Shown here one piece after another: positions 9,290 through 53,170 of a stretch of DNA of 64,000 nt. The stretch's first letter is position 1, and every line of letters begins with the position of its first letter. The position numbers were made by a program, and so were the translations under genes. The stretch comes from Thuidium tamariscinum (lineage: Eukaryota; Streptophyta; Bryopsida; Hypnales; Thuidiaceae), in contig OX344753.2 of assembly GCA_947034885.2 (NCBI GenBank), positions 2,418,001 through 2,482,000 on the forward strand. The letters run 5' to 3'. The notes beneath the pieces are model-generated. The model worked only from the letters and a program-made list of their open reading frames with translations, did no database searches and was not told where the DNA came from.

Positions 9290-9436
9290 AAAAGCAGAAG
9301 AAAGTTGACGTCTGCGCCCTAGCGTCCGCGCCCAGACTTGCGTCCCCGCCCTGACGTCCCCGCCCGGCCTTGCGTCCGCGCCTGCTCATGGACTCTCTGC
9401 ATAGTGGATTTTAGTAGTAGATTTGTTTTCCAATTT

Positions 9437-22828: not shown

Positions 22829-23073
22829 CACACTACCCATCCGCGCCCTGACCCTCATGTTGAGGTCCGCGCCCTAACATTGACGGTGAAGTCCGCGCCC
22901 TACCTGTACGAGTCCGCACCCTAACGGACACATCCGCGCCCTGGATCTCGCGTTCTAAGTTGACATGTCAACCCTCCAAAAACCCACTACTTTGAAAAAT
23001 AAAGCCGTTTGGTTCGTCCAGACCATCCGTCCGGGACGTCGAGTGACCCTAACAACTCGCACGTTATGACAAC
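22829..23073 (-). mobile_element. Terminal fragment of the same hAT family
   Basis: Read on the minus strand from 23073 the fragment begins CATGGTTGTCATAAC, then CCCGGACGGA, TTTTTCAAAGTAGTGGG, GGTTGACATGTCA and GGGCGCGGA units. This is the same order as the first 150 bp of the hAT element at 2844. The terminal trinucleotide is CAT rather than CAG. No opposite terminus is visible between here and 20 kb, so this is a truncated or solo end. Its outer edge abuts leftover LRR-unit sequence. Confidence 0.8.
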
Positions 23074-23149
23074 CATGATGGATGCCCAACCTACAACTTC
23101 TTCCAACCTCCAAAGCCAAGCCATTGCAAACATGACATGTTGGCAATGG
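23074..23149 (-). pseudogene. Dead fiftieth LRR unit fragment
   Basis: This stretch aligns with the array block that normally encodes GHASF-to-IPLAIANMS, with scattered substitutions (for example CCAACCTACAACTTCTTCC in place of CCCACCCGTAGCTTCTTGC). A net 28-bp deletion at its junction with unit 49 shifts the frame and creates the TAG that ends the protein. The array therefore once continued further. Confidence 0.7.
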
Positions 23150-26100
23150 CTAGCGGAAACTCAATGTAGTAAATGATGTCAAGGATGCAAGTGCAGAATC
23201 AATAGTCTTCAACTGCTTGCAATCATTCAAGTTCAGCTCTTCTAGCGTTACCACATTCTCCAATCCTTGGGGCAAGGCTTCCAACACCTCACATCCTGTA
23301 AAGACCAAAACCTTCAAAGCCTTGAGGTTCTCAAATGATGCATGCCCCACCCGTAGCTTCTTGCAACCTTCAAAACCAAGCCACCGCAAACATGACATGT
23401 TGGCAATGGCTAGCGGAATCTCTTCCAATAGTTCACATCCCTTGAAATCTAATGTAGTAAGTGACGTCAAAGATGCAAGCGCGGAATTCACAATCTTTAG
23501 TTGCTTGCAATCAATAAAGTCAAGCTTTTCTAGCGATACCACATTCTCCAATCCTTGGGGCAAGGCTTCCAACACCTCACATCCTGTAAAGATCAATTTC
23601 CTCAAAGCCTTGAGGTTCTCAAATGATGCATGCCCCACCCGTAGCTTCTTGCAACCTTTAAAACCAAGCTCTTGCAAACATGACATGTTTGCAATGGCTA
23701 GCGGAATCTCTTCCAATAGTTCACATCCCTTGAAATCTAATGTAGTAAGTGACGTCAAAGATGCAAGCGCGGAATCGATAGTCTTCAACTGCTTGCAATC
23801 ATTCAAGTACAGCTCTTCTAGCGATACCACATTCTCCAATCCTTGGGGCAAGGCTTCCAACACCTCACATCCTGTAAAGATCAATTTCCTCAAAGCCTTG
23901 AGGTTCTCAAATGATGCATGCCCCACCCGTAGCTTCTTGCAACCTTCAAAACCAAGCGACCGCAAACATGACATGTTTGCAATGGCTAGCGGAATCTCTT
24001 CCAATAGTTCACATCCCTTGAAATCTAATGTAGTAAGTGACGTCAAAGATGCAAGCGCGGAATCGATAGTCTTCAACTGCTTGCAATCACTCAAGTACAA
24101 CCTTTCTAGCGATACCACATTCTCCAATCCTTGGGGCAAGGCTTCCAACACCTCACATCCTGTAAAGACCAAAACCTTCAAAGCCTTGAGGTTCTCAAAT
24201 GATGCATGCCCCACCCGTAGCTTCTTGCAACCTTTAAAACCAAGCCACCGCAAACATGACATGTTTGCAATGGCTAGCGGAATCTCTTCCAATAGTTCAC
24301 ATCCCTTGAAATCTAATGTAGTAAGTGACGTCAAAGATGCAAGCGCGGAATCGATAGTCTTCAACTGCTTGCAATCACTCAAGTTCAGCTCTTCTAGCGA
24401 TACCACATTCTCCAATCCTTGGGGCAAGGCTTCCAACACCTCACATCCTGTAAAGACCAAAACCTTCAAAGCCTTGAGGTTCTCAAATGATGCATGCCCC
24501 ACCCGTAGCTTCTTGCAACCTTTAAAACCAAGCCACCGCAAACATGACATGTTGGCAATGGCTAGCGGAATCTCTTCCAATAGTTCACATCCCTTGAAAT
24601 CTAATGTAGTAAGTGACGTCAAAGATGCAAGCGCGGAATCGATAGTCTTCAACTGCTTGCAATCATTCAAGTACAGCTCTTCTAGCGATACCACATTCTC
24701 CAATCCTTGGGGCAAGGCTTCCAACACCTCACATCCTGTAAAGATCAATTTCCTCAAAGCCTTGAGGTTCTCAAATGATACATGCCCCACCCGTAGCTTC
24801 TTGCAACCTTCAAAACCAAGCGACCGCAAACATGACATGTTGGCAATGGCTAGCGGAATCTCTTCCAATAGTTCACATCCCTTGAAATCTAATGTAGTAA
24901 GTGACGTCAAAGATGCAAGCGCGGAATCGATAGTCTTCAACTGCTTGCAATCACTCAAGTACAGCTTTTCTAGCGATACCACATTCTCCAATCCTTGGGG
25001 CAAGGCTTCCAACACCTCACATCCTGTAAAGACCAAAACCTTCAAAGCCTTGAGGTTCTCAAATGATGCATGCCCCACCCGTAGCTTCTTGCAACCTTCA
25101 AAACCAAGCTCTTGCAAACATGACATGTTGGCAATGGCTAGCGGAATCTCTTCCAATAGTTCACATCCCTTCAAATCTAATGTAGTAAGTGACGTCAAAG
25201 ATGCAAGCGCGGAATCGATAGTCTTCAACTGCTTGCAATCACTCAAGTACAACCTTTCTAGCGATACCACATTCTCCAATCCTTGGGGCAAGGCTTCCAA
25301 CACCTCACATCCTGTAAAGACCAAAACCTTCAAAGCCTTGAGGTTCTCAAATGATGCATGCCCCACCCGTAGCTTCTTGCAACCTTCAAAACCAAGCGAC
25401 CGCAAACATGACATGTTGGCAATGGCTAGCGGAATCTCTTCCAATAGTTCACATCCCTTGAAATCTAATGTAGTAAGTGACGTCAAAGATGCAAGCGCGG
25501 AATTCACAATCTTTAGTTGCTTGCAATCAATAAAGTCAAGCTTTTCTAGCGATACCACATTCTCCAATCCTTGGGGCAAGGCTTCCAACACCTCACATCC
25601 TGTAAAGACCAAAACCTTCAAAGCCTTGAGGTTCTCAAATGATGCATGCCCCACCCGTAGCTTCTTGCAACCTTTAAAACCAAGCCACCGCAAACATGAC
25701 ATGTTGGCAATGGCTAGCGGAATCTCTTCCAATAGTTCACATCCCTTCAAATCTAATGTAGTAAGTGATGTCAAAGATGCAAGCGCGGAATCGATAGTCT
25801 TCAACTGCTTGCAATCATTCAAGTTCAGCTCTTCTAGCGTTACCACATTCTCCAATCCTTGGGGCAAGGCTTCCAACACCTCACATCCTGTAAAGACCAA
25901 AACCTTCAAAGCCTTGAGGTTCTCAAATGATGCATGCCCCACCCGTAGCTTCTTGCAACCTTTAAAACCAAGCCACCGCAAACATGACATGTTGGCAATG
26001 GCTAGCGGAATCTCTTCCAATAGTTCACATCCCTTGAAATCTAATGTAGTAAGTGACGTCAAAGATGCAAGCGCGGAATCGATAGTCTTCAACTGCTTGC

Positions 26101-29100
26101 AATCATTCAAGTACAGCTCTTCTAGCGATACCACATTCTCCAATCCTTGGGGCAAGGCTTCCAACACCTCACATCCTGTAAAGATCAATTTCCTCAAAGC
26201 CTTGAGGTTCTCAAATGATGCATGCCCCACCCGTAGCTTCTTGCAACCTTTAAAACCAAGCGACCGCAAACATGACATGTTTGCAATGGCTAGCGGAATC
26301 TCTTCCAATAGTTCACATCCCTTGAAATCTAATGTAGTAAGTGACGTCAAAGATGCAAGCGCGGAATTCACAATCTTTAGTTGCTTGCAATCAATAAAGT
26401 CAAGCTTTTCTAGCGATACCACATTCTCCAATCCTTGGGGCAAGGCTTCCAACACCTCACATCCTGTAAAGACCAAAACCTTCAAAGCCTTGAGGTTCTC
26501 AAATGATGCATGCCCCACCCGTAGCTTCTTGCAACCTTTAAAACCAAGCCACCGCAAACATGACATGTTGGCAATGGCTAGCGGAATCTCTTCCAATAGT
26601 TCACATCCCTTCAAATCTAATGTAGTAAGTGATGTCAAAGATGCAAGCGCGGAATCGATAGTCTTCAACTGCTTGCAATCACTCAAGTTCAGCTCTTCTA
26701 GCGTTACCACATTCTCCAATCCTTGGGGCAAGGCTTCCAACACCTCACATCCTGTAAAGACCAAAACCTTCAAAGCCTTGAGGTTCTCAAATGATGCATG
26801 CCCCACCCGTAGCTTCTTGCAACCTTTAAAACCAAGCCACCGCAAACATGACATGTTTGCAATGGCTAGCGGAATCTCTTCCAATAGTTCACATCCCTTG
26901 AAATCTAATGTAGTAAGTGACGTCAAAGATGCAAGCGCGGAATCGATAGTCTTCAACTGCTTGCAATCATTCAAGTACAGCTCTTCTAGCGATACCACAT
27001 TCTCCAATCCTTGGGGCAAGGCTTCCAACACCTCACATCCTGTAAAGATCAGTTTCCTCAAAGCCTTGAGGTTCTCAAATGATGCATGCCCCACCCGTAG
27101 CTTCTTGCAACCTTGAAAACCAAGCGACCGCAAACATGACATGTTTGCAATGGCTAGCGGAATCTCTTCCAATAGTTCACATCCCTTGAAATCTAATGTA
27201 GTAAGTGACGTCAAAGATGCAAGCGCGGAATTCACAATCTTTAGTTGCTTGCAATCAATAAAGTCAAGCTTTTCTAGCGATACCACATTCTCCAATCCTT
27301 GGGGCAAGGCTTCCAACACCTCACATCCTGTAAAGATCAATTTCCTCAAAGCCTTGAGGTTCTCAAATGATGCATGCCCCACCCGTAGCTTCTTGCAACC
27401 TTTAAAACCAAGCCACCGCAAACATGACATGTTGGCAATGGCTAGCGGAATCTCTTCCAATAGTTCACATCCCTTGAAATCTAATGTAGTAAGTGACGTC
27501 AAAGATGCAAGCGCGGAATCGATAGTCTTCAACTGCTTGCAATCACTCAAGTTCAGCTCTTCTAGCGTTACCACATTCTCCAATCCTTGGGGCAAGGCTT
27601 CCAACACCTCACATCCTGTAAAGACCAAAACCTTCAAAGCCTTGAGGTTCTCAAATGATGCATGCCCCACCCGTAGCTTCTTGCAACCTTGAAAACCAAG
27701 CCACCGCAAACATGACATGTTGGCAATGGCTAGCGGAATCTCTTCCAATAGTTCACATCCCTTGAAATCTAATGTAGTAAGTGACGTCAAAGATGCAAGC
27801 GCGGAATCGATAGTCTTCAACTGCTTGCAATCATTCAAGTACAGCTCTTCTAGCGATACCACATTCTCCAATCCTTGGGGCAAGGCTTCCAACACCTCAC
27901 ATCCTGTAAAGATCAGTTTCCTCAAAGCCTTGAGGTTCTCAAATGATGCATGCCCCACCCGTAGCTTCTTGCAACCTTGAAAACCAAGCGACCGCAAACA
28001 TGACATGTTTGCAATGGCTAGCGGAATCTCTTCCAATAGTTCACATCCCTTGAAATCTAATGCAGTAAGTGACGTCAAAGATGCAAGCGCGGAATTCACA
28101 ATCTTTAGTTGCTTGCAATCAATAAAGTCAAGCTTTTCTAGCGATACCACATTCTCCAATCCTTGGGGCAAGGCTTCCAACACCTCACATCCTGTAAAGA
28201 CCAAAACCTTCAAAGCCTTGAGGTTCTCAAATGATGCATGCCCCACCCGTAGCTTCTTGCAACCTTTAAAACCAAGCCACCGCAAACATGACATGTTGGC
28301 AATGGCTAGCGGAATCTCTTCCAATAGTTCACATCCCTTGAAATCTAATGTAGTAAGTGACGTCAAAGATGCAAGCGCGGAATCGATAGTCTTCAACTGC
28401 TTGCAATCATTCAAGTACAGCTCTTCTAGCGATACCACATTCTCCAATCCTTGGGGCAAGGCTTCCAACACCTCACATCCTGTAAAGATCAATTTCCTCA
28501 AAGCCTTGAGGTTCTCAAATGATGCATGCCCCACCCGTAGCTTCTTGCAACCTTGAAAACCAAGCCACCGCAAACATGACATGTTTGCAATGGCTAGCGG
28601 AATCTCTTCCAATAGTTCACATCCCTTGAAATCTAATGTAGTAAGTGACGTCAAAGATGCAAGCGCGGAATTCACAATCTTTAGTTGCTTGCAATCAATA
28701 AAGTCAAGCTTTTCTAGCGATACCACATTCTCCAATCCTTGGGGCAAGGCTTCCAACACCTCACATCCTGTAAAGACCAAAACCTTCAAAGCCTTGAGGT
28801 TCTCAAATGATGCATGCCCCACCCGTAGCTTCTTGCAACCTTTAAAACCAAGCCACCGCAAACATGACATGTTGGCAATGGCTAGCGGAATCTCTTCCAA
28901 TAGTTCACATCCCTTCAAATCTAATGTAGTAAGTGACGTCAAAGATGCAAGCGCGGAATCGATAGTCTTCAACTGCTTGCAATCATTCAAGTACAGCTCT
29001 TCTAGCGATACCACATTCTCCAATCCTTGGGGCAAGGCTTCCAACACCTCACATCCTGTAAAGATCAGTTTCCTCAAAGCCTTGAGGTTCTCAAATGATG

Positions 29101-32100
29101 CATGCCCCACCCGTAGCTTCTTGCAACCTTGAAAACCAAGCGACCGCAAACATGACATGTTTGCAATGGCTAGCGGAATCTCTTCCAATAGTTCACATCC
29201 CTTGAAATCTAATGTAGTAAGTGACGTCAAAGATGCAAGCGCGGAATTCACAATCTTTAGTTGCTTGCAATCAATAAAGTCAAGCTTTTCTAGCGATACC
29301 ACATTCTCCAATCCTTGGGGCAAGGCTTCCAACACCTCACATCCTGTAAAGACCAAAACCTTCAAAGCCTTGAGGTTCTCAAATGATGCATGCCCCACCC
29401 GTAGCTTCTTGCAACCTTTAAAACCAAGCCACCGCAAACATGACATGTTGGCAATGGCTAGCGGAATCTCTTCCAATAGTTCACATCCCTTCAAATCTAA
29501 TGTAGTAAGTGACGTCAAAGATGCAAGCGCGGAATCGATAGTCTTCAACTGCTTGCAATCATTCAAGTACAGCTCTTCTAGCGATACCACATTCTCCAAT
29601 CCTTGGGGCAAGGCTTCCAACACCTCACATCCTGTAAAGATCAGTTTCCTCAAAGCCTTGAGGTTCTCAAATGATGCATGCCCCACCCGTAGCTTCTTGC
29701 AACCTTTAAAACCAAGCGACCGCAAACATGACATGTTTGCAATGGCTAGCGGAATCTCTTCCAATAGTTCACATCCCTTGAAATCTAATGTAGTAAGTGA
29801 CGTCAAAGATGCAAGCGCGGAATTCACAATCTTTAGTTGCTTGCAATCAATAAAGTCAAGCTTTTCTAGCGATACCACATTCTCCAATCCTTGGGGCAAG
29901 GCTTCCAACACCTCACATCCTGTAAAGACCAAAACCTTCAAAGCCTTGAGGTTCTCAAATGATGCATGCCCCACCCGTAGCTTCTTGCAACCTTTAAAAC
30001 CAAGCCACCGCAAACATGACATGTTGGCAATGGCTAGCGGAATCTCTTCCAATAGTTCACATCCCTTCAAATCTAATGTAGTAAGTGATGTCAAAGATGC
30101 AAGCGCGGAATCGATAGTCTTCAACTGCTTGCAATCACTCAAGTTCAGCTCTTCTAGCGTTACCACATTCTCCAATCCTTGGGGCAAGGCTTCCAACACC
30201 TCACATCCTGTAAAGACCAAAACCTTCAAAGCCTTGAGGTTCTCAAATGATGCATGCCCCACCCGTAGCTTCTTGCAACCTTTAAAACCAAGCCACCGCA
30301 AACATGACATGTTGGCAATGGCTAGCGGAATCTCTTCCAATAGTTCACATCCCTTGAAATCTAATGTAGTAAGTGACGTCAAAGATGCAAGCGCGGAATC
30401 GATAGTCTTCAACTGCTTGCAATCATTCAAGTACAGCTCTTCTAGCGATACCACATTCTCCAATCCTTGGGGCAAGGCTTCCAACACCTCACATCCTGTA
30501 AAGATCAGTTTCCTCAAAGCCTTGAGGTTCTCAAATGATGCATGCCCCACCCGTAGCTTCTTGCAACCTTTAAAACCAAGCGACCGCAAACATGACATGT
30601 TTGCAATGGCTAGCGGAATCTCTTCCAATAGTTCACATCCCTTGAAATCTAATGTAGTAAGTGACGTCAAAGATGCAAGCGCGGAATTCACAATCTTTAG
30701 TTGCTTGCAATCAATAAAGTCAAGCTTTTCTAGCGATACCACATTCTCCAATCCTTGGGGCAAGGCTTCCAACACCTCACATCCTGTAAAGATCAATTTC
30801 CTCAAAGCCTTGAGGTTCTCAAATGATGCATGCCCCACCCGTAGCTTCTTGCAACCTTTAAAACCAAGCCACCGCAAACATGACATGTTGGCAATGGCTA
30901 GCGGAATCTCTTCCAATAGTTCACATCCCTTGAAATCTAATGTAGTAAGTGACGTCAAAGATGCAAGCGCGGAATCGATAGTCTTCAACTGCTTGCAATC
31001 ATTCAAGTACAGCTCTTCTAGCGATACCACATTCTCCAATCCTTGGGGCAAGGCTTCCAACACCTCACATCCTGTAAAGATCAATTTCCTCAAAGCCTTG
31101 AGGTTCTCAAATGATGCATGCCCCACCCGTAGCTTCTTGCAACCTTGAAAACCAAGCGACCGCAAACATGACATGTTTGCAATGGCTAGCGGAATCTCTT
31201 CCAATAGTTCACATCCCTTGAAATCTAATGTAGTAAGTGACGTCAAAGATGCAAGCGCGGAATTCACAATCTTTAGTTGCTTGCAATCAATAAAGTCAAG
31301 CTTTTCTAGCGATACCACATTCTCCAATCCTTGGGGCAAGGCTTCCAACACCTCACATCCTGTAAAGACCAAAACCTTCAAAGCCTTGAGGTTCTCAAAT
31401 GATGCATGCCCCACCCGTAGCTTCTTGCAACCTTTAAAACCAAGCCACCGCAAACATGACATGTTTGCAATGGCTAGCGGAATCTCTTCCAATAGTTCAC
31501 ATCCCTTCAAATCTAATGTAGTAAGTGATGTCAAAGATGCAAGCGCGGAATCGATAGTCTTCAACTGCTTGCAATCACTCAAGTTCAGCTCTTCTAGCGT
31601 TACCACATTCTCCAATCCTTGGGGCAAGGCTTCCAACACCTCACATCCTGTAAAGACCAAAACCTTCAAAGCCTTGAGGTTCTCAAATGATGCATGCCCC
31701 ACCCGTAGCTTCTTGCAACCTTTAAAACCAAGCCACCGCAAACATGACATGTTGGCAATGGCTAGCGGAATCTCTTCCAATAGTTCACATCCCTTGAAAT
31801 CTAATGTAGTAAGTGACGTCAAAGATGCAAGCGCGGAATCGATAGTCTTCAACTGCTTGCAATCATTCAAGTACAGCTCTTCTAGCGATACCACATTCTC
31901 CAATCCTTGGGGCAAGGCTTCCAACACCTCACATCCTGTAAAGATCAGTTTCCTCAAAGCCTTGAGGTTCTCAAATGATGCATGCCCCACCCGTAGCTTC
32001 TTGCAACCTTTAAAACCAAGCGACCGCAAGCATGACATGTTTGCAATGGCTAGCGGAATCTCTTCCAATAGTTCACATCCCTTGAAATCTAATGTAGTAA

Positions 32101-35100
32101 GTGACGTCAAAGATGCAAGCGCGGAATTCACAATCTTTAGTTGCTTGCAATCAATAAAGTCAAGCTTTTCTAGCGATACCACATTCTCCAATCCTTGGGG
32201 CAAGGCTTCCAACACCTCACATCCTGTAAAGATCAATTTCCTCAAAGCCTTGAGGTTCTCAAATGATGCATGCCCCACCCGTAGCTTCTTGCAACCTTTA
32301 AAACCAAGCCACCGCAAACATGACATGTTGGCAATGGCTAGCGGAATCTCTTCCAATAGTTCACATCCCTTGAAATCTAATGTAGTAAGTGACGTCAAAG
32401 ATGCAAGCGCGGAATCGATAGTCTTCAACTGCTTGCAATCATTCAAGTACAGCTCTTCTAGCGATACCACATTCTCCAATCCTTGGGGCAAGGCTTCCAA
32501 CACCTCACATCCTGTAAAGATCAATTTCCTCAAAGCCTTGAGGTTCTCAAATGATGCATGCCCCACCCGTAGCTTCTTGCAACCTTGAAAACCAAGCGAC
32601 CGCAAACATGACATGTTTGCAATGGCTAGCGGAATCTCTTCCAATAGTTCACATCCCTTGAAATCTAATGTAGTAAGTGACGTCAAAGATGCAAGCGCGG
32701 AATTCACAATCTTTAGTTGCTTGCAATCAATAAAGTCAAGCTTTTCTAGCGATACCACATTCTCCAATCCTTGGGGCAAGGCTTCCAACACCTCACATCC
32801 TGTAAAGACCAAAACCTTCAAAGCCTTGAGGTTCTCAAATGATGCATGCCCCACCCGTAGCTTCTTGCAACCTTTAAAACCAAGCTCTTGCAAACATGAC
32901 ATGTTGGCAATGGCTAGCGGAATCTCTTCCAATAGTTCACATCCCTTCAAATCTAATGTAGTAAGTGATGTCAAAGATGCAAGCGCGGAATCGATAGTCT
33001 TCAACTGCTTGCAATCACTCAAGTTCAGCTCTTCTAGCGTTACCACATTCTCCAATCCTTGGGGCAAGGCTTCCAACACCTCACATCCTGTAAAGACCAA
33101 AACCTTCAAAGCCTTGAGGTTCTCAAATGATGCATGCCCCACCCGTAGCTTCTTGCAACCTTTAAAACCAAGCCACCGCAAACATGACATGTTTGCAATG
33201 GCTAGCGGAATCTCTTCCAATAGTTCACATCCCTTGAAATCTAATGTAGTAAGTGACGTCAAAGATGCAAGCGCGGAATCGATAGTCTTCAACTGCTTGC
33301 AATCATTCAAGTACAGCTCTTCTAGCGATACCACATTCTCCAATCCTTGGGGCAAGGCTTCCAACACCTCACATCCTGTAAAGATCAGTTTCCTCAAAGC
33401 CTTGAGGTTCTCAAATGATGCATGCCCCACCCGTAGCTTCTTGCAACCTTTAAAACCAAGCGACCGCAAACATGACATGTTTGCAATGGCTAGCGGAATC
33501 TCTTCCAATAGTTCACATCCCTTGAAATCTAATGTAGTAAGTGACGTCAAAGATGCAAGCGCGGAATTCACAATCTTTAGTTGCTTGCAATCAATAAAGT
33601 CAAGCTTTTCTAGCGATACCACATTCTCCAATCCTTGGGGCAAGGCTTCCAACACCTCACATCCTGTAAAGATCAATTTCCTCAAAGCCTTGAGGTTCTC
33701 AAATGATGCATGCCCCACCCGTAGCTTCTTGCAACCTTTAAAACCAAGCCACCGCAAACATGACATGTTGGCAATGGCTAGCGGAATCTCTTCCAATAGT
33801 TCACATCCCTTGAAATCTAATGTAGTAAGTGACGTCAAAGATGCAAGCGCGGAATCGATAGTCTTCAACTGCTTGCAATCATTCAAGTACAGCTCTTCTA
33901 GCGATACCACATTCTCCAATCCTTGGGGCAAGGCTTCCAACACCTCACATCCTGTAAAGATCAATTTCCTCAAAGCCTTGAGGTTCTCAAATGATGCATG
34001 CCCCACCCGTAGCTTCTTGCAACCTTGAAAACCAAGCGACCGCAAACATGACATGTTTGCAATGGCTAGCGGAATCTCTTCCAATAGTTCACATCCCTTG
34101 AAATCTAATGTAGTAAGTGACGTCAAAGATGCAAGCGCGGAATTCACAATCTTTAGTTGCTTGCAATCAATAAAGTCAAGCTTTTCTAGCGATACCACAT
34201 TCTCCAATCCTTGGGGCAAGGCTTCCAACACCTCACATCCTGTAAAGACCAAAACCTTCAAAGCCTTGAGGTTCTCAAATGATGCATGCCCCACCCGTAG
34301 CTTCTTGCAACCTTTAAAACCAAGCCACCGCAAACATGACATGTTGGCAATGGCTAGCGGAATCTCTTCCAATAGTTCACATCCCTTCAAATCTAATGTA
34401 GTAAGTGATGTCAAAGATGCAAGCGCGGAATCGATAGTCTTCAACTGCTTGCAATCACTCAAGTTCAGCTCTTCTAGCGTTACCACATTCTCCAATCCTT
34501 GGGGCAAGGCTTCCAACACCTCACATCCTGTAAAGACCAAAACCTTCAAAGCCTTGAGGTTCTCAAATGATGCATGCCCCACCCGTAGCTTCTTGCAACC
34601 TTTAAAACCAAGCCACCGCAAACATGACATGTTGGCAATGGCTAGCGGAATCTCTTCCAATAGTTCACATCCCTTGAAATCTAATGTAGTAAGTGACGTC
34701 AAAGATGCAAGCGCGGAATCGATAGTCTTCAACTGCTTGCAATCACTCAAGTTCAGCTCTTCTAGCGTTACCACATTCTCCAATCCTTGGGGCAAGGCTT
34801 CCAACACCTCACATCCTGTAAAGACCAAAACCTTCAAAGCCTTGAGGTTCTCAAATGATGCATGCCCCACCCGTAGCTTCTTGCAACCTTGAAAACCAAG
34901 CCACCGCAAACATGACATGTTGGCAATGGCTAGCGGAATCTCTTCCAATAGTTCACATCCCTTGAAATCTAATGTAGTAAGTGACGTCAAAGATGCAAGC
35001 GCGGAATCGATAGTCTTCAACTGCTTGCAATCATTCAAGTACAGCTCTTCTAGCGATACCACATTCTCCAATCCTTGGGGCAAGGCTTCCAACACCTCAC

Positions 35101-37915
35101 ATCCTGTAAAGACCAAAACCTTCAAAGCCTTGAGGTTCTCAAATGATGCATGCCCCACCCGTAGCTTCTTGCAACCTTTAAAACCAAGCCACCGCAAACA
35201 TGACATGTTGGCAATGGCTAGCGGAATCTCTTCCAATAGTTCACATCCCTTCAAATCTAATGTAGTAAGTGATGTCAAAGATGCAAGCGCGGAATCGATA
35301 GTCTTCAACTGCTTGCAATCACTCAAGTTCAGCTCTTCTAGCGTTACCACATTCTCCAATCCTTGGGGCAAGGCTTCCAACACCTCACATCCTGTAAAGA
35401 CCAAAACCTTCAAAGCCTTGAGGTTCTCAAATGATGCATGCCCCACCCGTAGCTTCTTGCAACCTTTAAAACCAAGCCACCGCAAACATGACATGTTGGC
35501 AATGGCTAGCGGAATCTCTTCCAATAGTTCACATCCCTTGAAATCTAATGTAGTAAGTGACGTCAAAGATGCAAGCGCGGAATCGATAGTCTTCAACTGC
35601 TTGCAATCATTCAAGTACAGCTCTTCTAGCGATACCACATTCTCCAATCCTTGGGGCAAGGCTTCCAACACCTCACATCCTGTAAAGATCAGTTTCCTCA
35701 AAGCCTTGAGGTTCTCAAATGATTCATGCCCCACCCGTAGCTTCTTGCAACCTTTAAAACCAAGCGACCGCAAGCATGACATGTTTGCAATGGCTAGCGG
35801 AATCTCTTCCAATAGTTCACATCCCTTGAAATCTAATGTAGTAAGTGACGTCAAAGATGCAAGCGCGGAATTCACAATCTTTAGTTGCTTGCAATCAATA
35901 AAGTCAAGCTTTTCTAGCGATACCACATTCTCCAATCCTTGGGGCAAGGCTTCCAACACCTCACATCCTGTAAAGATCAATTTCCTCAAAGCCTTGAGGT
36001 TCTCAAATGATGCATGCCCCACCCGTAGCTTCTTGCAACCTTTAAAACCAAGCCACCGCAAACATGACATGTTGGCAATGGCTAGCGGAATCTCTTCCAA
36101 TAGTTCACATCCCTTGAAATCTAATGTAGTAAGTGACGTCAAAGATGCAAGCGCGGAATCGATAGTCTTCAACTGCTTGCAATCATTCAAGTACAGCTCT
36201 TCTAGCGATACCACATTCTCCAATCCTTGGGGCAAGGCTTCCAACACCTCACATCCTGTAAAGATCAATTTCCTCAAAGCCTTGAGGTTCTCAAATGATA
36301 CATGCCCCACCCGTAGCTTCTTGCAACCTTCAAAACCAAGCGACCGCAAACATGACATGTTGGCAATGGCTAGCGGAATCTCTTCCAATAGTTCACATCC
36401 CTTGAAATCTAATGTAGTAAGTGACGTCAAAGATGCAAGCGCGGAATCGATAGTCTTCAACTGCTTGCAATCACTCAAGTACAGCTTTTCTAGCGATACC
36501 ACATTCTCCAATCCTTGGGGCAAGGCTTCCAACACCTCACATCCTGTAAAGACCAAAACCTTCAAAGCCTTGAGGTTCTCAAATGATGCATGCCCCACCC
36601 GTAGCTTCTTGCAACCTTCAAAACCAAGCTCTTGCAAACATGACATGTTGGCAATGGCTAGCGGAATCTCTTCCAATAGTTCACATCCCTTCAAATCTAA
36701 TGTAGTAAGTGACGTCAAAGATGCAAGCGCGGAATCGATAGTCTTCAACTGCTTGCAATCACTCAAGTACAACCTTTCTAGCGATACCACATTCTCCAAT
36801 CCTTGGGGCAAGGCTTCCAACACCTCACATCCTGTAAAGACCAAAACCTTCAAAGCCTTGAGGTTCTCAAATGATGCATGCCCCACCCGTAGCTTCTTGC
36901 AACCTTCAAAACCAAGCTCTTGCAAACATGACATGTTGGCAATGGCTAGCGGAATCTCTTCCAATAGTTCACATCCCTTGAAATCTAATGTAGTAAGTGA
37001 CGTCAAAGATGCAAGCGCGGAATCGATAGTCTTCAACTGCTTGCAATCATTCAAGTACAGCTCTTCTAGCGATACCACATTCTTCAATCCTTGGGGCAAG
37101 GCTTCCAACACCTCACATCCTGTAAAGATCAGTTTCCTCAAAGCCTTGAGGTTCTCAAATGATGCATGCCCCACCCGTAGCTTCTTGCAACCTTCAAAAC
37201 CAAGCGACCGCAAACATGACATGTTGGCAATGGCTAGCGGAATCTCTTCCAATAGTTCACATCCCTTGAAATCTAATGTAGTAAGTGATGTCAAGGATAC
37301 AAGCTCGGAATTCACAATCTTTAGTTGCTTGCAATCAATAAAGTCAAGCTTTTCTAAAGATGGCAATTGATCCAATCCATGGGGGATATTTTTCAATGCC
37401 TTACATCCTTTGAAACTTATCAATTTAAGAGCTTTAAGATTTTTAAATGTTACATGAACTTGGGCCAAGTTTTTGCATCTTTGGATGAACAATGATTTCA
37501 ATGATGTCATGTTTTGAAAACCCTCTGATATGTTTGTAAGGTTGTCACAATCTCTTAAGCACAATGTCTTCAACGGAATGTGGTCAATTGTTGTGTTCGG
37601 AAAAATCTTCAACGATGGAAAATTTTGCAATTCTAATACTGTAAGTTGTCGAAGTTCTTGGAGCAAGAAGAGGTCTATGAGTTGATTGGTGCAATATAAA
37701 GAGATATTTCCATAATCAATATCATTTGTTTTATATGTAATTCGAAGAAATTTGAGTTGATGAGTTTTCTTAATCAACTTTGTAACATTGCTCAAATCAT
37801 TGAGTACTTCAATATATAGAAGCAACATTTCTGAGAATTCTCCGTTTGCAATTGTAGTCAAATCCATTTCTTTATTCACACCTGTAATGCAAATGCCTCT
37901 GGCATTTTGAAACTC
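23150..37915 (-). CDS. Exon 3: single 14.8-kb LRR exon
   Basis: The exon encodes 4,921 residues without a stop. The first about 120 residues hold irregular LRRs. Four 24-residue LRRs follow (CDNLTNIS, CKNLAQVH, CKALKNIP, CKQLKIVN starts) and form a diverged version of the repeating unit. Then come 49 units of 96 residues, each with four LRRs beginning CELLEEIP, CKKLRVGH, CEVLEALP and CKQLK(T/I), all with a Cys at position 1 and the plant CxxLxxLPxxLxxLxxLxxLxLxx rhythm. That is 196 LRRs in the array and about 200 in all. The protein ends SFTTLSFR* because of the 28-bp deletion described for the dead unit. Confidence 0.9.
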   Translation of the reverse strand, partial: EFQNARGICITGVNKEMDLTTIANGEFSEMLLLYIEVLNDLSNVTKLIKKTHQLKFLRITYKTNDIDYGNISLYCTNQLIDLFLLQELRQLTVLELQNFPSLKIFPNTTIDHIPLKTLCLRDCDNLTNISEGFQNMTSLKSLFIQRCKNLAQVHVTFKNLKALKLISFKGCKALKNIPHGLDQLPSLEKLDFIDCKQLKIVNSELVSLTSLTTLDFKGCELLEEIPLAIANMSCLRSLGFEGCKKLRVGHASFENLKALRKLIFTGCEVLEALPQGLKNVVSLEELYLNDCKQLKTIDSALASLTSLTTLDFKGCELLEEIPLAIANMSCLQELGFEGCKKLRVGHASFENLKALKVLVFTGCEVLEALPQGLENVVSLERLYLSDCKQLKTIDSALASLTSLTTLDLKGCELLEEIPLAIANMSCLQELGFEGCKKLRVGHASFENLKALKVLVFTGCEVLEALPQGLENVVSLEKLYLSDCKQLKTIDSALASLTSLTTLDFKGCELLEEIPLAIANMSCLRSLGFEGCKKLRVGHVSFENLKALRKLIFTGCEVLEALPQGLENVVSLEELYLNDCKQLKTIDSALASLTSLTTLDFKGCELLEEIPLAIANMSCLRWLGFKGCKKLRVGHASFENLKALRKLIFTGCEVLEALPQGLENVVSLEKLDFIDCKQLKIVNSALASLTSLTTLDFKGCELLEEIPLAIANMSCLRSLGFKGCKKLRVGHESFENLKALRKLIFTGCEVLEALPQGLENVVSLEELYLNDCKQLKTIDSALASLTSLTTLDFKGCELLEEIPLAIANMSCLRWLGFKGCKKLRVGHASFENLKALKVLVFTGCEVLEALPQGLENVVTLEELNLSDCKQLKTIDSALASLTSLTTLDLKGCELLEEIPLAIANMSCLRWLGFKGCKKLRVGHASFENLKALKVLVFTGCEVLEALPQGLENVVSLEELYLNDCKQLKTIDSALASLTSLTTLDFKGCELLEEIPLAIANMSCLRWLGFQGCKKLRVGHASFENLKALKVLVFTGCEVLEALPQGLENVVTLEELNLSDCKQLKTIDSALASLTSLTTLDFKGCELLEEIPLAIANMSCLRWLGFKGCKKLRVGHASFENLKALKVLVFTGCEVLEALPQGLENVVTLEELNLSDCKQLKTIDSALASLTSLTTLDLKGCELLEEIPLAIANMSCLRWLGFKGCKKLRVGHASFENLKALKVLVFTGCEVLEALPQGLENVVSLEKLDFIDCKQLKIVNSALASLTSLTTLDFKGCELLEEIPLAIANMSCLRSLGFQGCKKLRVGHASFENLKALRKLIFTGCEVLEALPQGLENVVSLEELYLNDCKQLKTIDSALASLTSLTTLDFKGCELLEEIPLAIANMSCLRWLGFKGCKKLRVGHASFENLKALRKLIFTGCEVLEALPQGLENVVSLEKLDFIDCKQLKIVNSALASLTSLTTLDFKGCELLEEIPLAIANMSCLRSLGFKGCKKLRVGHASFENLKALRKLIFTGCEVLEALPQGLENVVSLEELYLNDCKQLKTIDSALASLTSLTTLDFKGCELLEEIPLAIANMSCLRWLGFKGCKKLRVGHASFENLKALKVLVFTGCEVLEALPQGLENVVTLEELNLSDCKQLKTIDSALASLTSLTTLDLKGCELLEEIPLAIANMSCLQELGFKGCKKLRVGHASFENLKALKVLVFTGCEVLEALPQGLENVVSLEKLDFIDCKQLKIVNSALASLTSLTTLDFKGCELLEEIPLAIANMSCLRSLGFQGCKKLRVGHASFENLKALRKLIFTGCEVLEALPQGLENVVSLEELYLNDCKQLKTIDSALASLTSLTTLDFKGCELLEEIPLAIANMSCLRWLGFKGCKKLRVGHASFENLKALRKLIFTGCEVLEALPQGLENVVSLEKLDFIDCKQLKIVNSALASLTSLTTLDFKGCELLEEIPLAIANMSCLRSLGFKGCKKLRVGHASFENLKALRKLIFTGCEVLEALPQGLENVVSLEELYLNDCKQLKTIDSALASLTSLTTLDFKGCELLEEIPLAIANMSCLRWLGFKGCKKLRVGHASFENLKALKVLVFTGCEVLEALPQGLENVVTLEELNLSDCKQLKTIDSALASLTSLTTLDLKGCELLEEIPLAIANMSCLRWLGFKGCKKLRVGHASFENLKALKVLVFTGCEVLEALPQGLENVVSLEKLDFIDCKQLKIVNSALASLTSLTTLDFKGCELLEEIPLAIANMSCLRSLGFQGCKKLRVGHASFENLKALRKLIFTGCEVLEALPQGLENVVSLEELYLNDCKQLKTIDSALASLTSLTTLDFKGCELLEEIPLAIANMSCLRWLGFKGCKKLRVGHASFENLKALRKLIFTGCEVLEALPQGLENVVSLEKLDFIDCKQLKIVNSALASLTSLTTLDFKGCELLEEIPLAIANMSCLRSLGFKGCKKLRVGHASFENLKALRKLIFTGCEVLEALPQGLENVVSLEELYLNDCKQLKTIDSALASLTSLTTLDFKGCELLEEIPLAIANMSCLRWLGFKGCKKLRVGHASFENLKALKVLVFTGCEVLEALPQGLENVVTLEELNLSDCKQLKTIDSALASLTSLTTLDLKGCELLEEIPLAIANMSCLRWLGFKGCKKLRVGHASFENLKALKVLVFTGCEVLEALPQGLENVVSLEKLDFIDCKQLKIVNSALASLTSLTTLDFKGCELLEEIPLAIANMSCLRSLGFKGCKKLRVGHASFENLKALRKLIFTGCEVLEALPQGLENVVSLEELYLNDCKQLKTIDSALASLTSLTTLDLKGCELLEEIPLAIANMSCLRWLGFKGCKKLRVGHASFENLKALKVLVFTGCEVLEALPQGLENVVSLEKLDFIDCKQLKIVNSALASLTSLTTLDFKGCELLEEIPLAIANMSCLRSLGFQGCKKLRVGHASFENLKALRKLIFTGCEVLEALPQGLENVVSLEELYLNDCKQLKTIDSALASLTSLTTLDLKGCELLEEIPLAIANMSCLRWLGFKGCKKLRVGHASFENLKALKVLVFTGCEVLEALPQGLENVVSLEKLDFIDCKQLKIVNSALASLTSLTTLDFKGCELLEEIPLAIANMSCLRWLGFQGCKKLRVGHASFENLKALRKLIFTGCEVLEALPQGLENVVSLEELYLNDCKQLKTIDSALASLTSLTTLDFKGCELLEEIPLAIANMSCLRWLGFKGCKKLRVGHASFENLKALKVLVFTGCEVLEALPQGLENVVSLEKLDFIDCKQLKIVNSALASLTSLTALDFKGCELLEEIPLAIANMSCLRSLGFQGCKKLRVGHASFENLKALRKLIFTGCEVLEALPQGLENVVSLEELYLNDCKQLKTIDSALASLTSLTTLDFKGCELLEEIPLAIANMSCLRWLGFQGCKKLRVGHASFENLKALKVLVFTGCEVLEALPQGLENVVTLEELNLSDCKQLKTIDSALASLTSLTTLDFKGCELLEEIPLAIANMSCLRWLGFKGCKKLRVGHASFENLKALRKLIFTGCEVLEALPQGLENVVSLEKLDFIDCKQLKIVNSALASLTSLTTLDFKGCELLEEIPLAIANMSCLRSLGFQGCKKLRVGHASFENLKALRKLIFTGCEVLEALPQGLENVVSLEELYLNDCKQLKTIDSALASLTSLTTLDFKGCELLEEIPLAIANMSCLRWLGFKGCKKLRVGHASFENLKALKVLVFTGCEVLEALPQGLENVVTLEELNLSDCKQLKTIDSALASLTSLTTLDLKGCELLEEIPLAIANMSCLRWLGFKGCKKLRVGHASFENLKALKVLVFTGCEVLEALPQGLENVVSLEKLDFIDCKQLKIVNSALASLTSLTTLDFKGCELLEEIPLAIANMSCLRSLGFKGCKKLRVGHASFENLKALRKLIFTGCEVLEALPQGLENVVSLEELYLNDCKQLKTIDSALASLTSLTTLDFKGCELLEEIPLAIANMSCLRWLGFKGCKKLRVGHASFENLKALKVLVFTGCEVLEALPQGLENVVTLEELNLNDCKQLKTIDSALASLTSLTTLDLKGCELLEEIPLAIANMSCLRWLGFKGCKKLRVGHASFENLKALKVLVFTGCEVLEALPQGLENVVSLEKLDFIDCKQLKIVNSALASLTSLTTLDFKGCELLEEIPLAIANMSCLRSLGFEGCKKLRVGHASFENLKALKVLVFTGCEVLEALPQGLENVVSLERLYLSDCKQLKTIDSALASLTSLTTLDLKGCELLEEIPLAIANMSCLQELGFEGCKKLRVGHASFENLKALKVLVFTGCEVLEALPQGLENVVSLEKLYLSDCKQLKTIDSALASLTSLTTLDFKGCELLEEIPLAIANMSCLRSLGFEGCKKLRVGHVSFENLKALRKLIFTGCEVLEALPQGLENVVSLEELYLNDCKQLKTIDSALASLTSLTTLDFKGCELLEEIPLAIANMSCLRWLGFKGCKKLRVGHASFENLKALKVLVFTGCEVLEALPQGLENVVSLEELNLSDCKQLKTIDSALASLTSLTTLDFKGCELLEEIPLAIANMSCLRWLGFKGCKKLRVGHASFENLKALKVLVFTGCEVLEALPQGLENVVSLERLYLSDCKQLKTIDSALASLTSLTTLDFKGCELLEEIPLAIANMSCLRSLGFEGCKKLRVGHASFENLKALRKLIFTGCEVLEALPQGLENVVSLEELYLNDCKQLKTIDSALASLTSLTTLDFKGCELLEEIPLAIANMSCLQELGFKGCKKLRVGHASFENLKALRKLIFTGCEVLEALPQGLENVVSLEKLDFIDCKQLKIVNSALASLTSLTTLDFKGCELLEEIPLAIANMSCLRWLGFEGCKKLRVGHASFENLKALKVLVFTGCEVLEALPQGLENVVTLEELNLNDCKQLKTIDSALASLTSFTTLSFR

Positions 37916-40900
37916 CTGAATCACAAAGTTTCATTGTTAAATGGTTACAAGTTGATGGGCATTAATGAAATTGAAAAGGACATTGATTATCATAAAAAAC
38001 AAAATTTTCTCAACAAAGATGACCACTTTCAAATCTAGAACTGAACCAAGATATTTGTAATAAATGAATCATTCAAAACATTTTTCTATTAAATAAAACA
38101 TACCTCTTTTGTCAATGTTTCTAGTGAATAGAAAGGTTGCTTCCACTTTCTTCGACCTCCAAATCTTCTCCTTGAGATTCTACGTCCCATATCACGTATT
38201 GAATCATGCATATTTATATATCCATTGTCATTGATTTTGATGAGTGACTTTTCACTTAGACTTGCAATTATTGTTTTAGTATTTTCATTCAAATAGTCAA
38301 CTATTGTATCTTCTTGAATGTCTTCAAACCGTACATCTTTACAAAAGAAACACGATATGTCTAGAAACACATCTTGCTCTTCATTGTTAAGTATATCAAA
38401 ACTAATCTCCAATCTTCTCCCCACATCCTCATAGGCATCATATTCTCCTTTCTTCAATCTTTGTAAAGCTCGCTCCCATACACGAAGGCGTGTTTGTCCA
38501 TTTAAACAAGAGCCCATAACTTCTAAGCTTAATGGATGGCCACCATAAGTGTTAACAATCTCCTTGTTGAATTGTTTCATGTGTGGTATCATTGCACTAC
38601 CATTCTTGAAAGCATATTTCAAGAATATTTCTTCAGATTGGTCATAATTTAGCATTGGAACTTCAAATTTGCTATCTTCATTGATTAAGCCTTTCAAGAT
38701 TTTCCAATCACGGCTAGTAACAATCAATTTGCTACCCTCTATATTGAACATTTTTGCTTCCAAAAACACATCCAATTGATGTTCTTCAGTGACATCATCT
38801 AAGATGAAGAAGACTTTTTTTTGTTGGAGCACCAATTCCAATATGAGTTTACCCTCAACAAGATCTTTTGCTTCTTCTTTTTGTCCCAATTCCTTCAAGA
38901 TTCGATTCATTTCCATCAAATAATCATTTTTTAGATCACACATGATTGTAGTCCACTTAGATGAGTCATTAAATAACAATGCCTTCTTCAAGTGATCCTT
39001 CAAAGCCTTCACCAATGTTGTTTTTCCAATGCCACTCATTCCAACAACACCAACCATAGACTTATTCTGGAGAAACTTTTCTAAGGTCTTGATTTTGAAA
39101 TCAAGACCATGACATTTCGGAAGTATTAATGCACCAATGATCCCCTATACACATAAAAAGTCACCACAAATCAACAAATTGAGAAATTACAACAATTAAC
39201 AAAGATTGATGATCTCATTCAAATAAGTTCAAAATCAAAAACCAATGATGCTTTTAAAATGGGCTTGAATCTACAATGGTAAAAACATATTAAGCTCAAA
39301 ACATTCTTGAAATAAGTTCTTACCTTGGTACGTTCGTCATTTATTTTTGGAATATACAATCTCCTTACGTGTTGAAGGATAAATATCCATACAAAATTGA
39401 CAATCAATTTCCATACATATGACCACCATTGTCTAATCGTTCCAATAGAAGATGAAAGTTGTGTAAATGGATTCAAATGTGAATATGTTTGATCTTCTTT
39501 CATCAATGTCTTGTTAATACATTGAGTCTTGAAAGCCTTCATCTTTATCTCCATCAAACTTGTATATATCTTTTCAAAAGATGGTCTTCCATTTGGATCC
39601 ACAGACAAACAATCTTCAATTAAAGATTGTAATTCTTGACAAAGTGGAATCTTCATTAAGGCAAATTTTTGCCTTTTTGCAATTTCAAAAGGACTAGATC
39701 TAAAGTCTTTAAACTGATTTTCAATCAATATGTCACAACAAATCAATCCAAAACTAAACACATCAGTTTTCAATGGATCCAACTTTGTGTTGGACTTTGC
39801 TACTTCAGGAGCCATATATCCACGAGTCCCACGAATACCACTTGGAACGACAAGAATATTGTCCTTCACTTCATTCTTGGAAATACCAAAATCAATTAAT
39901 TTAGCACATACATAACCATCTTGTTTTAACTCCGGATATTGCATTGAATTCACTACAACATTGGCTGGCTTCAAATCACGATGTGCAATTTTCATATCAT
40001 GAAGGTACAACATTCCGCTTGCAACTTGGTGCATTAAATCCAACTTGGCATGGAATGAAATCTTTTGATTTGAATCTTCAAATAGCAATTCGTGAAGACT
40101 CTTTTCACCTCTTTCCATTCCAAATTGAAGATAATTGTTTTCCTTTTTATCAAAATCCTTGAAAGAACCACAATAGAATAACTTGACAATGTTTGGATGA
40201 TTCAATTGAGCCATAATCCGCACTTCTTTCTCCAATGCAGTAATACCAGATTCATTCCAACCAGCCAAATCTATTTTCTTTGTGACATTCTCAATGCCCA
40301 ACCACTTTGTCAAAAATACATCTCTTGCAAGACATTTAGGAGGAAGTCCAAAATCTGGTAATGGAACATTTGGAAGAAACTGAATTACATCACTTTCACC
40401 ACTTTCTACCTTCAAGATGCACTCCCTCCAGTGTAGCAAATACTTCGCTAGTTCATAATCATGTGATCCAAGTGGCAAATTGTGCAAGTTGTTTTCCAAT
40501 ATTTTGCATAATTCATCTTGATCTTCTTCAACTTCCTTTAAATCACATGGGAGGAAAGTAGTGACATGTGATTGAAAATCCACAATAGTCTCCATTCCTT
40601 TCAAATATGAATCAATGTTTGATGCTATGTCCAAGCAAGATGTCATTTCCAAAAGCAATTCTCGAAATGCTTCTTTGTTTTGCATTTGAATTAGAGGCGC
40701 AATAGACAAAGTTTGAGAACAACTTTGCACCAACATCTCAGCCTTTGAACAAATTTTACAAACATCTTTCAATAAAGGTTGAAAGGCTCTTGTATCCAAT
40801 TCAAATATCTTTAGAAATCTTTGCACAAAATGGCGCAAATGATGTACCAAATTCTTGCATTGATTAGCATTAAATACTTGATTTGAATCAAAAAATTCTT

Positions 40901-40949
40901 CACAATTTTTCCAAGCTTTGATAGTCTCCATTTTCTTGAAAATATCCAT
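23150..40949 (-). CDS. Giant protein kinase-NB-ARC-LRR receptor (moss PNL type), ~5,810 aa
   Basis: Three exons join in phase 0: 40949-39324, 39144-38104 and 37915-23150. The predicted product is about 5,810 residues: helical N-terminal region (1-190), protein kinase (about 205-465), a hydrophobic segment (about 507-528), NB-ARC (about 550-860) and LRRs (about 960-5810). It belongs to the plant intracellular immune receptor (NLR) superfamily. The kinase-NB-ARC-LRR order is the PNL class described from mosses. The expected role is ATP-dependent switching after ligand sensing by the LRR, with the kinase part as signalling module; this is family inference. An in-frame TAA lies nine nucleotides upstream of the ATG, fixing the start. 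A TTTGCAG about 50 bp upstream suggests a 5'-UTR intron. The LRR part is many times longer than in ordinary NLRs. Confidence 0.85.
25454..27181 (-). repeat. Higher-order repeat: two copies of a three-unit (864-bp) block
   Basis: Units 36-38 and 39-41 both run YLND-type, NLSD/NLND-type, DFID-type. Units 24-26 show the same triplet. Confidence 0.8.
28046..29773 (-). repeat. Higher-order repeat: three copies of a two-unit (576-bp) block
   Basis: Units 27-28, 29-30 and 31-32 alternate a YLND-type and a DFID-type unit. They differ only in the RS/RW-LGF-K/Q spelling and DLKG versus DFKG. Confidence 0.8.
29774..34093 (-). repeat. Higher-order repeat: three copies of a five-unit (1,440-bp) block
   Basis: Units 12-16, 17-21 and 22-26 repeat the same series of LRR variants: RSLGFQ/YLND, RWLGFK/DFID, RSLGFK/YLND, RWLGFK/NLSD and RWLGFK (QELGFK in unit 16)/DFID. 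The spacing is exactly 1,440 bp. Units 5-7 and 10-11 carry parts of the same series. Confidence 0.85.
37916..38103 (-). other. Receptor intron 2 (188 bp)
   Basis: The donor is GTATGT and the acceptor TTCAG on the minus strand. It joins TLTKE to EFQNARGICITG in phase 0, between the NB-ARC tail and the first LRRs. Confidence 0.85.
38104..39144 (-). CDS. Exon 2: NB-ARC nucleotide-binding switch
   Basis: The exon encodes 347 residues with the NB-ARC motifs in order: P-loop GMSGIGKTT (577-585 of the full protein), kinase-2 FILDDVT (655-661), RNBS-B KLIVTSRDW, a GLPL-like GGHPLSLEVMGS (from 743), FLDISCFF (RNBS-D type), and MHDSIRDMG (MHD at 854-856). All residues needed for nucleotide binding are present, so the switch looks functional. 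The FLDISCFF and MHDxIRDMG spellings resemble the TIR-NLR-like side of the family rather than coiled-coil NLRs. The exon begins before the first Met of the open frame; the phase-0 acceptor at 39144 supplies the missing 29 residues. It ends ACAAAAGAG|GTATGT. Confidence 0.9.
39145..39323 (-). other. Receptor intron 1 (179 bp)
   Basis: On the minus strand the donor is GTAAGA and the acceptor TATAG. Splicing joins NDERTK to GIIGALILPKCHGLDF in phase 0, restoring a normal NB-ARC lead-in. Confidence 0.85.
39324..40949 (-). CDS. Exon 1: helical N-terminus, protein kinase, hydrophobic tail
   Basis: The exon encodes 542 residues. Residues 1-190 look all-helical with no known motif. The kinase has αC Glu candidates in LEKEVRIM (240/242), the catalytic loop HRDLKPAN (323-330), DFG (353-355), GTRGYMAPE (374-382), DVFSFG (396-401) and a terminal GRPSF. 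The Gly-rich loop is not recognisable (VFLTKWLGIENVTKKIDL), and the ATP-binding Lys is probably K224 or K225. Catalytic-loop residues are thus kept while the nucleotide loop is degenerate. A hydrophobic stretch around WWSYVWKLIVNFVWIFIL (508-525) might contact membrane. The exon ends ACCAAG|GTAAGA. Helical bundle plus kinase resembles MLKL-type layouts, but that is only a resemblance. Confidence 0.85.
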
Positions 40950-44460: not shown

Positions 44461-44893
44461 AGATCAACGGGCACGAGATTGAAATGGATATGGAAACATG
44501 GAATGGGACCAGACAAACCACTCAACATAGCTTAGCTTGAGAAACATGCCCAGAAGATTCAGATCGATACAGCAAAACTGGACTAACAAAACCACTCACC
44601 ATAGCCGGTTTAAAAGACATGGACAGGAGCTTCAAATAGATACGGCAAAACAAGCCTAGCAAAACCACTCACCATAGCTAGTTTGAGGGACATGGATAGA
44701 AGCTTGAGATCAACACGGCAAAACAGGACCAGCCAAGCCACTCGCTACAGCTTAAGATAAATGGACAGAACCTTGAGACTGAAATGGAAAAACAGGACGA
44801 GCCAAACCTCACCATAGTTTGAGATACATGGACAAACTTGAAACTGAAACGGTAAAACAGGACAAGCAAAATCACTCACCACAGCTTGAGATC
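44461..44893. repeat. 73-bp minisatellite, ~6 copies
   Basis: The unit is about 73 bp and is marked by CTCACCATAG, GACATGGA, GAGATCAA and GGCAAAACAGG. Clear starts are at 44521, 44595 and 44668. Outer copies are diverged or shortened. It directly adjoins the WD40 fragment. Confidence 0.8.
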
Positions 44894-50197: not shown

Positions 50198-50433
50198 TAA
50201 TAGTGCTAGTATATGTGCATGAAAGTGTGAGCTTTAAGCATATACTATCATGTAAGTACATATCATACAACCATTGAAGGTGTTTATAACATAAACACCT
50301 ATAATATAGGTACTTATAGTATATATGCACTATTAACATAGAAGGTTACTATAACATAGACACTTACATGATAGGTGTATAGTCTTCTAAGCTCATAAGC
50401 TCACACTTTTATGCTCACATAATAGCAATCCTC
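50198..50433. mobile_element. Hairpin MITE, copy 1
   Basis: The ends are inverted (left GTGCTAGTATATGTGC..GTGTGAGC; right GCTCACAC..GCTCACATAATAGCAA). The interior carries palindromic ACCTATA-type motifs (CACCTATAATATAGGTA). The same family recurs at 53014 and 53455. Confidence 0.6.
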
Positions 50434-52985: not shown

Positions 52986-53013
52986 CTCATTCAAGGTATA
53001 TAGATTTAAAGGA

Positions 53014-53170
53014 AGGTTGCTATAATGTAAGCCTAAGAGTGTGAGCCTATGAGCATAAAAGACTATACACCTATGGTATAAGTGTCTATAATATAGAGAT
53101 ATTTTATAATTATAATGCATTTATATTGTAAATACCTATAGTATAGGTTTTATTTTATAAGCACATTTTA
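53014..53170. mobile_element. Hairpin MITE, copy 2 (truncated)
   Basis: This has the same left-end and internal motifs as the copies at 50198 and 53455 (AGGTTGCTATAATGTAAGC, TACACCTATGGTATAAGTG), but the right end is not recognisable. Confidence 0.45.

Follow-up and report, generated by a model that had tools for sequence, protein, structure and literature searches.

How far can the leucine-rich repeat (LRR) domain of a plant nucleotide-binding LRR receptor (NLR) be extended, and what might such an extension be for? The question is posed by one gene on the minus strand of a window of 64,000 nucleotides from the moss Thuidium tamariscinum (assembly GCA_947034885.2, contig OX344753.2, positions 2,418,001 to 2,482,000), which a preliminary description, made from the sequence alone, had read as a kinase-NB-ARC-LRR receptor with about 200 LRRs. 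We find that the gene is an extreme variant of the PNL class of mosses (PK-NBS-LRR, also Pkn-NLR), in which an array of 49 near-identical four-LRR units has recombined blocks, decayed edges and nonsynonymous change raised at exposed sites. The LRR domain of this NLR may well have grown through unequal exchange, many times over, of a four-LRR module that it had inherited, and the gene may well act as a diversifying receptor. This last role is the best but unproven reading of the pattern of substitution and recombination.

The gene runs from right to left in the window and is laid out as follows:

39324..40949, minus strand: exon 1, 542 residues, N-terminal helical bundle and kinase domain, ending in a phase-0 GT donor
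39145..39323: intron 1, 179 bp, phase 0, separating kinase from NB-ARC, in position and phase as in PNL genes (PMC3352924)
38104..39144, minus strand: exon 2, 347 residues, with the Pfam NB-ARC at 39069-38398 and winged helix at 38397-38167
37916..38103: intron 2, 188 bp, phase 0
37915-23150, minus strand: exon 3, with lead-in LRRs, array, partial unit and stop codon
37358..37915, minus strand: lead-in of exon 3, 186 residues, divergent LRRs
23246..37357, minus strand: LRR array, 49 full units of 288 bp, each encoding four 24-residue LRRs (A-D)
23150..23245, minus strand: partial 50th unit, 31 residues and the stop codon, just beyond a gap of 28 bp in the alignment to the unit
23078..23149, minus strand: decayed, untranslated remainder of the 50th unit, recognised by alignment to the unit

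Both introns have predicted GT-AG borders (GTAAGA...TATAG for intron 1, GTATGT...TTCAG for intron 2). Splice sites and translation reproduce exactly the three exons joined in phase 0 and the roughly 5,810 residues proposed earlier, the spliced frame encoding 5,810 amino acids (643 kDa). The domain assignment is likewise upheld by Pfam, with matches to the kinase PF00069 (E 3.6e-35), NB-ARC (1.5e-29), WHD_ROQ1 (9.1e-13) and several LRR models, and the best match of exon 2 in the PDB is ROQ1 (E 1.6e-31). Read by eye, the translation contains GMSGIGKTT, FFILDDV, GGHPLSL and MHD, which we take to be the P-loop, kinase-2, GLPL-type and MHD-type motifs; the first, second and fourth had already been described as intact, and they are.

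The array is as regular as the claim of 49 uninterrupted four-LRR modules behind a divergent lead-in implied. Tandem Repeats Finder returns a period of 288 and 49.3 copies (score 25,091), all 49 full units are in frame and exactly 288 bp long, with no indels and no stops, and a 20-mer taken from the unit, with as many as three mismatches allowed, is found 49 times, always exactly (0 expected from 100 shuffles). Over the 14,112 bases of the array the sense frame has 0 stops, and the other five frames have 9, 253, 313, 398 and 408. Antisense coding by the plus-strand frames opposite the array (1,320 residues and others) was ruled out, the best antisense frame having nine stops. Chaining of LRR motifs gives 204 LRRs, against at most 11 in three shuffles of the same protein, which agrees with the estimate of about 200; a stricter motif has 204 matches protein-wide, of which a few fall outside the LRRs, the longest run being 199. 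With the partial unit, the array comes to about 4,735 residues, its copy number being that of one assembly. The last two lead-in LRRs resemble LRRs C and D of the unit (11/24 and 10/24 identical; best other letters 6 and 9). No continuation of the array beyond the flanking repeat was found by tblastn of the protein's first 1,300 residues and its last 300 against the window with exon 3 masked, where the only matches besides the gene itself were the remnant (23147-23073) and a weak one at 47078 (E 0.22).

To which class does the gene belong? Xue et al. (2012) described in mosses a PNL class that has the order kinase-NBS-LRR (NBS, nucleotide-binding site) and in which a phase-0 intron separating the kinase from the NBS is conserved (PMC3352924). 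The gene has an N-terminal kinase, NB-ARC motifs, the phase-0 intron, similarity to the PNLs of P. patens and C-terminal LRRs and, judged by these features, it is a moss PNL-class NLR, an assignment that we count among our observations. A search with residues 1-889 (kinase and NB-ARC) gave 235 matches; among the 120 listed, the closest named proteins are from P. patens, namely P0004, a kinase-NB-ARC protein of 900 residues (40% identity over 97%), and P0005, of 1,360 residues (38% over 99%). P0009 is a remoter P. patens relative (33% identity over 53% of the query). Both P0005 and P0009 share with the window gene the order kinase, NB-ARC, winged helix domain and LRR, and have 24-residue LRRs.

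The preliminary description had proposed to seek the 96-residue unit in other mosses, and P0005 has it: its self-identity is 86% at an offset of 96 residues, against 25-32% at 24, 48, 72, 120 and 144. Compared with the window unit in four registers, P0005 gives 40/96 identities at best and 34, 27 and 25 in the others. On these sequence comparisons the four-LRR module looks inherited, because P0005 shares the 96-residue period and one register fits the window unit better. In P0009 it is the 24-residue LRRs that are homogenised, self-identity being 70-75% at all six multiples of 24 compared. Thus, homogenisation of LRRs is seen in other moss PNLs, and the scale is the new part: the periodic part of P0005 comprises 10 LRRs, or about 2.5 modules, and the longest motif chain of P0009 is 26, whereas the window gene has 49 modules and a partial one, with a chain of 204.

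How unusual is this scale among plant NLRs? About 10% of some 39,469 plant NLR LRR domains are 1,000-3,400 residues long, and the window gene falls within the definition of a large LRR domain, at least 1,000 residues and at least 30 repeats (PMC9585916). The statement that its LRR number lies beyond the usual 10-40 therefore stands as to the count of about 200, but large LRR domains were already a known minority. Functional Tsw, for example, has 57 predicted LRRs, comprising a core of 15 and seven blocks of six LRRs that are quasi-identical (PMC9585916). The window gene resembles Tsw and other large-LRR plant NLRs in that its core LRRs lead into an uninterrupted row of quasi-identical blocks, each made of several LRRs. 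However, Tsw is a CNL with seven six-LRR blocks and the maximum of the survey is about 3,400 residues, whereas the window gene is a PNL with 49 four-LRR blocks and about 4,735 residues. Growth in LRR number, with unequal crossing-over proposed, has also been described for the Tetrahymena LRR exon-shuffling genes; there the unit is a 90-bp exon with introns (PMC6564038), whereas our array lies within a single exon.

A search by LRR words at about 2.7-8.6 thousand residues gave at least 64 proteins from 1,122 scored candidates; in these together with P0005, P0007 and P0009 the longest LRR chain is 26, against 204 here (best 25 of 68 rows), by a chaining motif that suits plant-type LRRs and may undercount other types, such as bacterial BspA-like ones. 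A second search, by kinase and NB-ARC words at about 1.6-5.0 thousand residues, gave 6 proteins from 3,193 candidates in a database possibly poor in mosses. The longest of the six with kinase, NB-ARC and LRR among the listed Pfam domains is P0009 (1,817 residues), and P0189 (2,223 residues) has kinase, NB-ARC and TPR models and no LRR model. A plant NLR LRR domain longer than 3,400 residues did not appear in the titles, opening lines of abstracts and passages returned by a full-text literature search, which covered few subscription papers. If our reading is true, we know of no longer LRR domain in any plant NLR.

How did the array come about? The 49 units comprise 29 DNA types and 24 protein types, with 35 shared variant alleles and seven singletons, five in unit 1 and two in the other 48 units (13,824 bases). 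The four-gamete test is failed by 144 of 325 biallelic site pairs, and blocks of variants recur in differing combinations. Higher-order repeats are present as well, of five units over about units 10-30 and of two units over units 26-34, and the KLDFID unit type is adjacent to itself 0 times, against 4.9 expected (P 0.0012). Over the whole of the partial 50th unit 168 bases align, and 14 differences among them are private to it, in addition to the 28-bp gap. A uniform interior with decayed edges would be the pattern expected of unequal exchange. Fourfold sites have a GC content of 41% within the array and of 18-23% elsewhere in the gene, though one unit holds just 43 such sites; GC-biased conversion would produce a difference of this kind. 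Repeats that are near-identical yet carry recombined variants, one mark of the process known from the HNWD genes of fungi, are thus found here.

A second mark of that process, nonsynonymous change raised at the positions of an interaction surface, is also seen. In the standard LRR pattern LxxLxLxx the x residues are exposed, which gives 20 of the 96 codons per unit. Ten of the 17 nonsynonymous-variable codons of units 2-49 are exposed (hypergeometric P 1.4e-4; without singletons 9/16, P 6e-4). Over the 49 units, exposed codons have 17.5 nonsynonymous and 1.5 synonymous changes and the others 11.5 of each (Fisher P 0.008, or 0.0045 without unit 1). With synonymous sites pooled, omega is 1.93 at exposed codons and 0.34 at the others. 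The variation is unevenly placed, with three of the five exposed positions varying in each of LRRs A, C and D and LRR B varying by one singleton only, and it yields 19 distinct exposed surfaces among the 49 units.

At the other end of the protein, the N-terminus had been described simply as a kinase:

40404..40868, minus strand: helical bundle, residues ~28-182, MLKL/HeLo-like
39564..40286, minus strand: protein kinase domain PF00069, with Lys, HRD, DFG and APE present and the glycine-rich loop not recognisable

K224, H323-R324-D325, D353-F354-G355 and A380-P381-E382, which we take to play the usual roles of the kinase Lys, HRD, DFG and APE, are invariant in 9/9 aligned sequences; in the same alignment the region of the glycine-rich loop is shortened, with no GxGxxG. 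In the predicted structure of exon 1, bundle and kinase jointly match AtMLKL3 (6ka4) over 424 residues (VIA-align), which has the same order of an N-terminal helical bundle and a kinase fold. The kinase domain thus stands, but it is probably not all that the N-terminus comprises, which would be a bundle and kinase in the MLKL arrangement, because the two together match a full-length plant MLKL in the model. Unlike the window gene, 6ka4 is not fused to an NB-ARC-LRR, and the window kinase retains its catalytic residues. MLKL pseudokinases are without them. The MLKL_N profile matches three of nine family members at E of at most 1 (best 8.8e-4), the window's own sequence not being among them. Two other proteins, P0008 and P0010, contain a tandem pair of bundle-plus-kinase stretches related to the PNL N-terminus, and the Pfam domains listed for them do not include NB-ARC; MLKL_N matches P0008 weakly. 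The same literature search returned no MLKL reading of moss PNLs. One review refers, without giving details, to NLRs of charophytes or early land plants that carry a mixed lineage kinase domain, and the fusion of MLKL to an NLR may therefore have been published before.

We can now put these parts together. In a diversifying receptor of this kind, the lead-in LRRs and NB-ARC would form the usual ADP/ATP switch, and the array would offer a very long multivalent recognition surface, with LRR B constant and A, C and D carrying interchangeable exposed residues. Recombination within the array would generate new unit combinations and lengths, so that specificity would be diversified by reshuffling more than by point mutation, and activation would be relayed to the MLKL-like bundle-plus-kinase module, which would execute the response. 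Here we infer that the gene is expressed, that its LRRs fold as one solenoid, and that it has a ligand and an output. It had been argued that standard resistosome geometry cannot hold unchanged at this length. This does not follow, since it is mostly the first repeats of the LRR that contact the other NLR domains (4-8 according to one passage of the source, 10 according to its abstract; PMC9585916), so that extra repeats could simply extend outward.

Several points weigh against this reading. The variable codons were already known when the exposed-position test was chosen, the positions being the standard ones, the excess of omega over 1 at exposed sites is marginal (binomial P 0.042), and the variants of the array may be older than its expansion. 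Linkage between several blocks persists, so shuffling is incomplete, and unit similarity is independent of distance along the array (Mantel P 0.29). The gene stops within a unit beside the edge of a repeat or transposon. As for the N-terminus, kinase activity is doubtful on sequence grounds, confidence in the exon 1 model is middling (mean predicted local distance difference test score 69.9; five models 54.8-69.9), and a sequence search of the PDB with the bundle alone gave 6 weak matches, none of them an MLKL chain.

It is tempting to speculate further and see here a plant NLR in the style of fungal allorecognition, with 49 four-LRR cassettes continually reshuffled, about 200 repeats forming the solenoid, NB-ARC as the switch and an MLKL-like module as the executor; we put this forward tentatively, as a possibility that we do not expect to hold in full. 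Two hnwd genes of Podospora yielded 143 spontaneous mutants whose recognition specificity was altered, and the vast majority of these had rearrangements of the repeat array (PMC2873952), and fungal ANK and TPR repeats are under selection at surface positions (PMC4986451). Near-identical repeats, intragenic reshuffling and variation or selection at surface positions are thus shared by HNWD (het-d/e/r), other fungal NLRs and the window gene. However, the fungal STAND receptors combine WD40, ANK or TPR repeats with NACHT, and their instability has been measured, whereas that of the window gene is deduced; in a 2014 survey no LRR motifs were reported from fungal NLRs.

A non-adaptive origin is unlikely, in our view, but it is the alternative that survives best. 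Here runaway unequal crossing-over would have expanded a gene that is losing its 3' end, the giant protein being useless or unmade. Indeed, the open frame alone is weak evidence of selection, because the interior units are near-copies of each other and would keep it open without selection. The stop in the partial unit follows the 28-bp gap beside the repeat or transposon edge, and the exposed-site signal could date from before the expansion. Yet 49/49 units keep exactly 288 bp and the frame, non-exposed codons are constrained with elevation at exposed ones only, and exons 1-2 are intact with conserved motifs. Moreover, a gene end within a unit need not mean damage, because the C-terminal ends of P0005 and P0009 also fall within LRRs. 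The earlier remark that the gene does not look dead is therefore better founded on the substitution pattern than on the open frame, which is partly due to recent homogenisation.

It is still less probable that assembly or polishing inflated the copy number or homogenised the units. The interior is nearly without private mutations, a state that short-read polishing can also produce. However, the longest exact repeat in the array is 1,151 bp, while a looped path would be expected to leave exact copies of read length; this and the uniform interior with decay at both edges speak against an assembler loop, as do the 29 distinct unit types and the two different higher-order periods. Least probable is that a short kinase-NB-ARC (PN-type) protein is the working product, with most transcripts ending upstream of exon 3 or early within it and the array serving as a seldom used reservoir: 18 of 45 P. 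patens PNL-class genes are PN without LRR (PMC3352924, Table 1), the relative P0004 is such a protein, and with intron 2 retained the frame of exon 2 stops within 15 bases of the splice donor, but the constraint at non-exposed array codons suggests translation for much of the array's history.

The rest of the window is rich in repeats, one of which borders the gene:

22840..23077: end of a repeat or transposon family, adjoining the array, with a related copy at 2844-3015 (79% over 176 bases)

The stretches 2844-3015 and 22911-23077 are copies, inverted to each other, of a repeat end that starts GGTTGTCATAAC; they could mark either end of a 20-kb element, but no matching target-site duplication was seen by eye at them. 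Nested inverted repeats occupy 3078-9620 (longest 1,063 nt at 99%), with GC-rich subrepeats of 14, 18 and 32 bp (CAGGGCGCGGACG type), and related subrepeats lie near 22840-22970. An inverted repeat of 545 nt with a 648-nt spacer at 20690-22427 is probably young, because its arms are 100% complementary. Transposon-type frames on the plus strand at 9962-15927 (Transposase_21 (tnp2) 9962-11431, DUF4218 12570-13475, DUF4216 15268-15927) probably form one element, which we take to be CACTA-like. On the other side of the gene are an array of 67- and 73-bp repeats at 44515-44892 (74-79% matches), two direct copies about 1.55 kb apart at 54474-56886 (ungapped pieces 70-84% identical) and, at 62567-63280 on the minus strand, a frame that encodes a domain of glycosyltransferase family 8 (E 5.5e-53). 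RNA genes and tRNA genes were searched for in the window and none was found; a megablast of 50000-58000 against plasmids gave no match and is uninformative.

If the reading of a diversifying receptor is true, this gene would be an instance, in a plant, of receptor specificity that recombination generates inside one gene; provided that its product is really a single protein, the receptor may be unusually changeable. Moreover, the N-terminus of the moss 'kinase-NLRs' is worth re-examining as an MLKL-like executor. If real and expressed, the gene would push the length of NLR solenoids well past the published range and would offer one gene for testing the links among repeat recombination, surface diversification and immune recognition. 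The purpose of very large LRR domains would thereby become directly testable, in haploid plants with good genetics.

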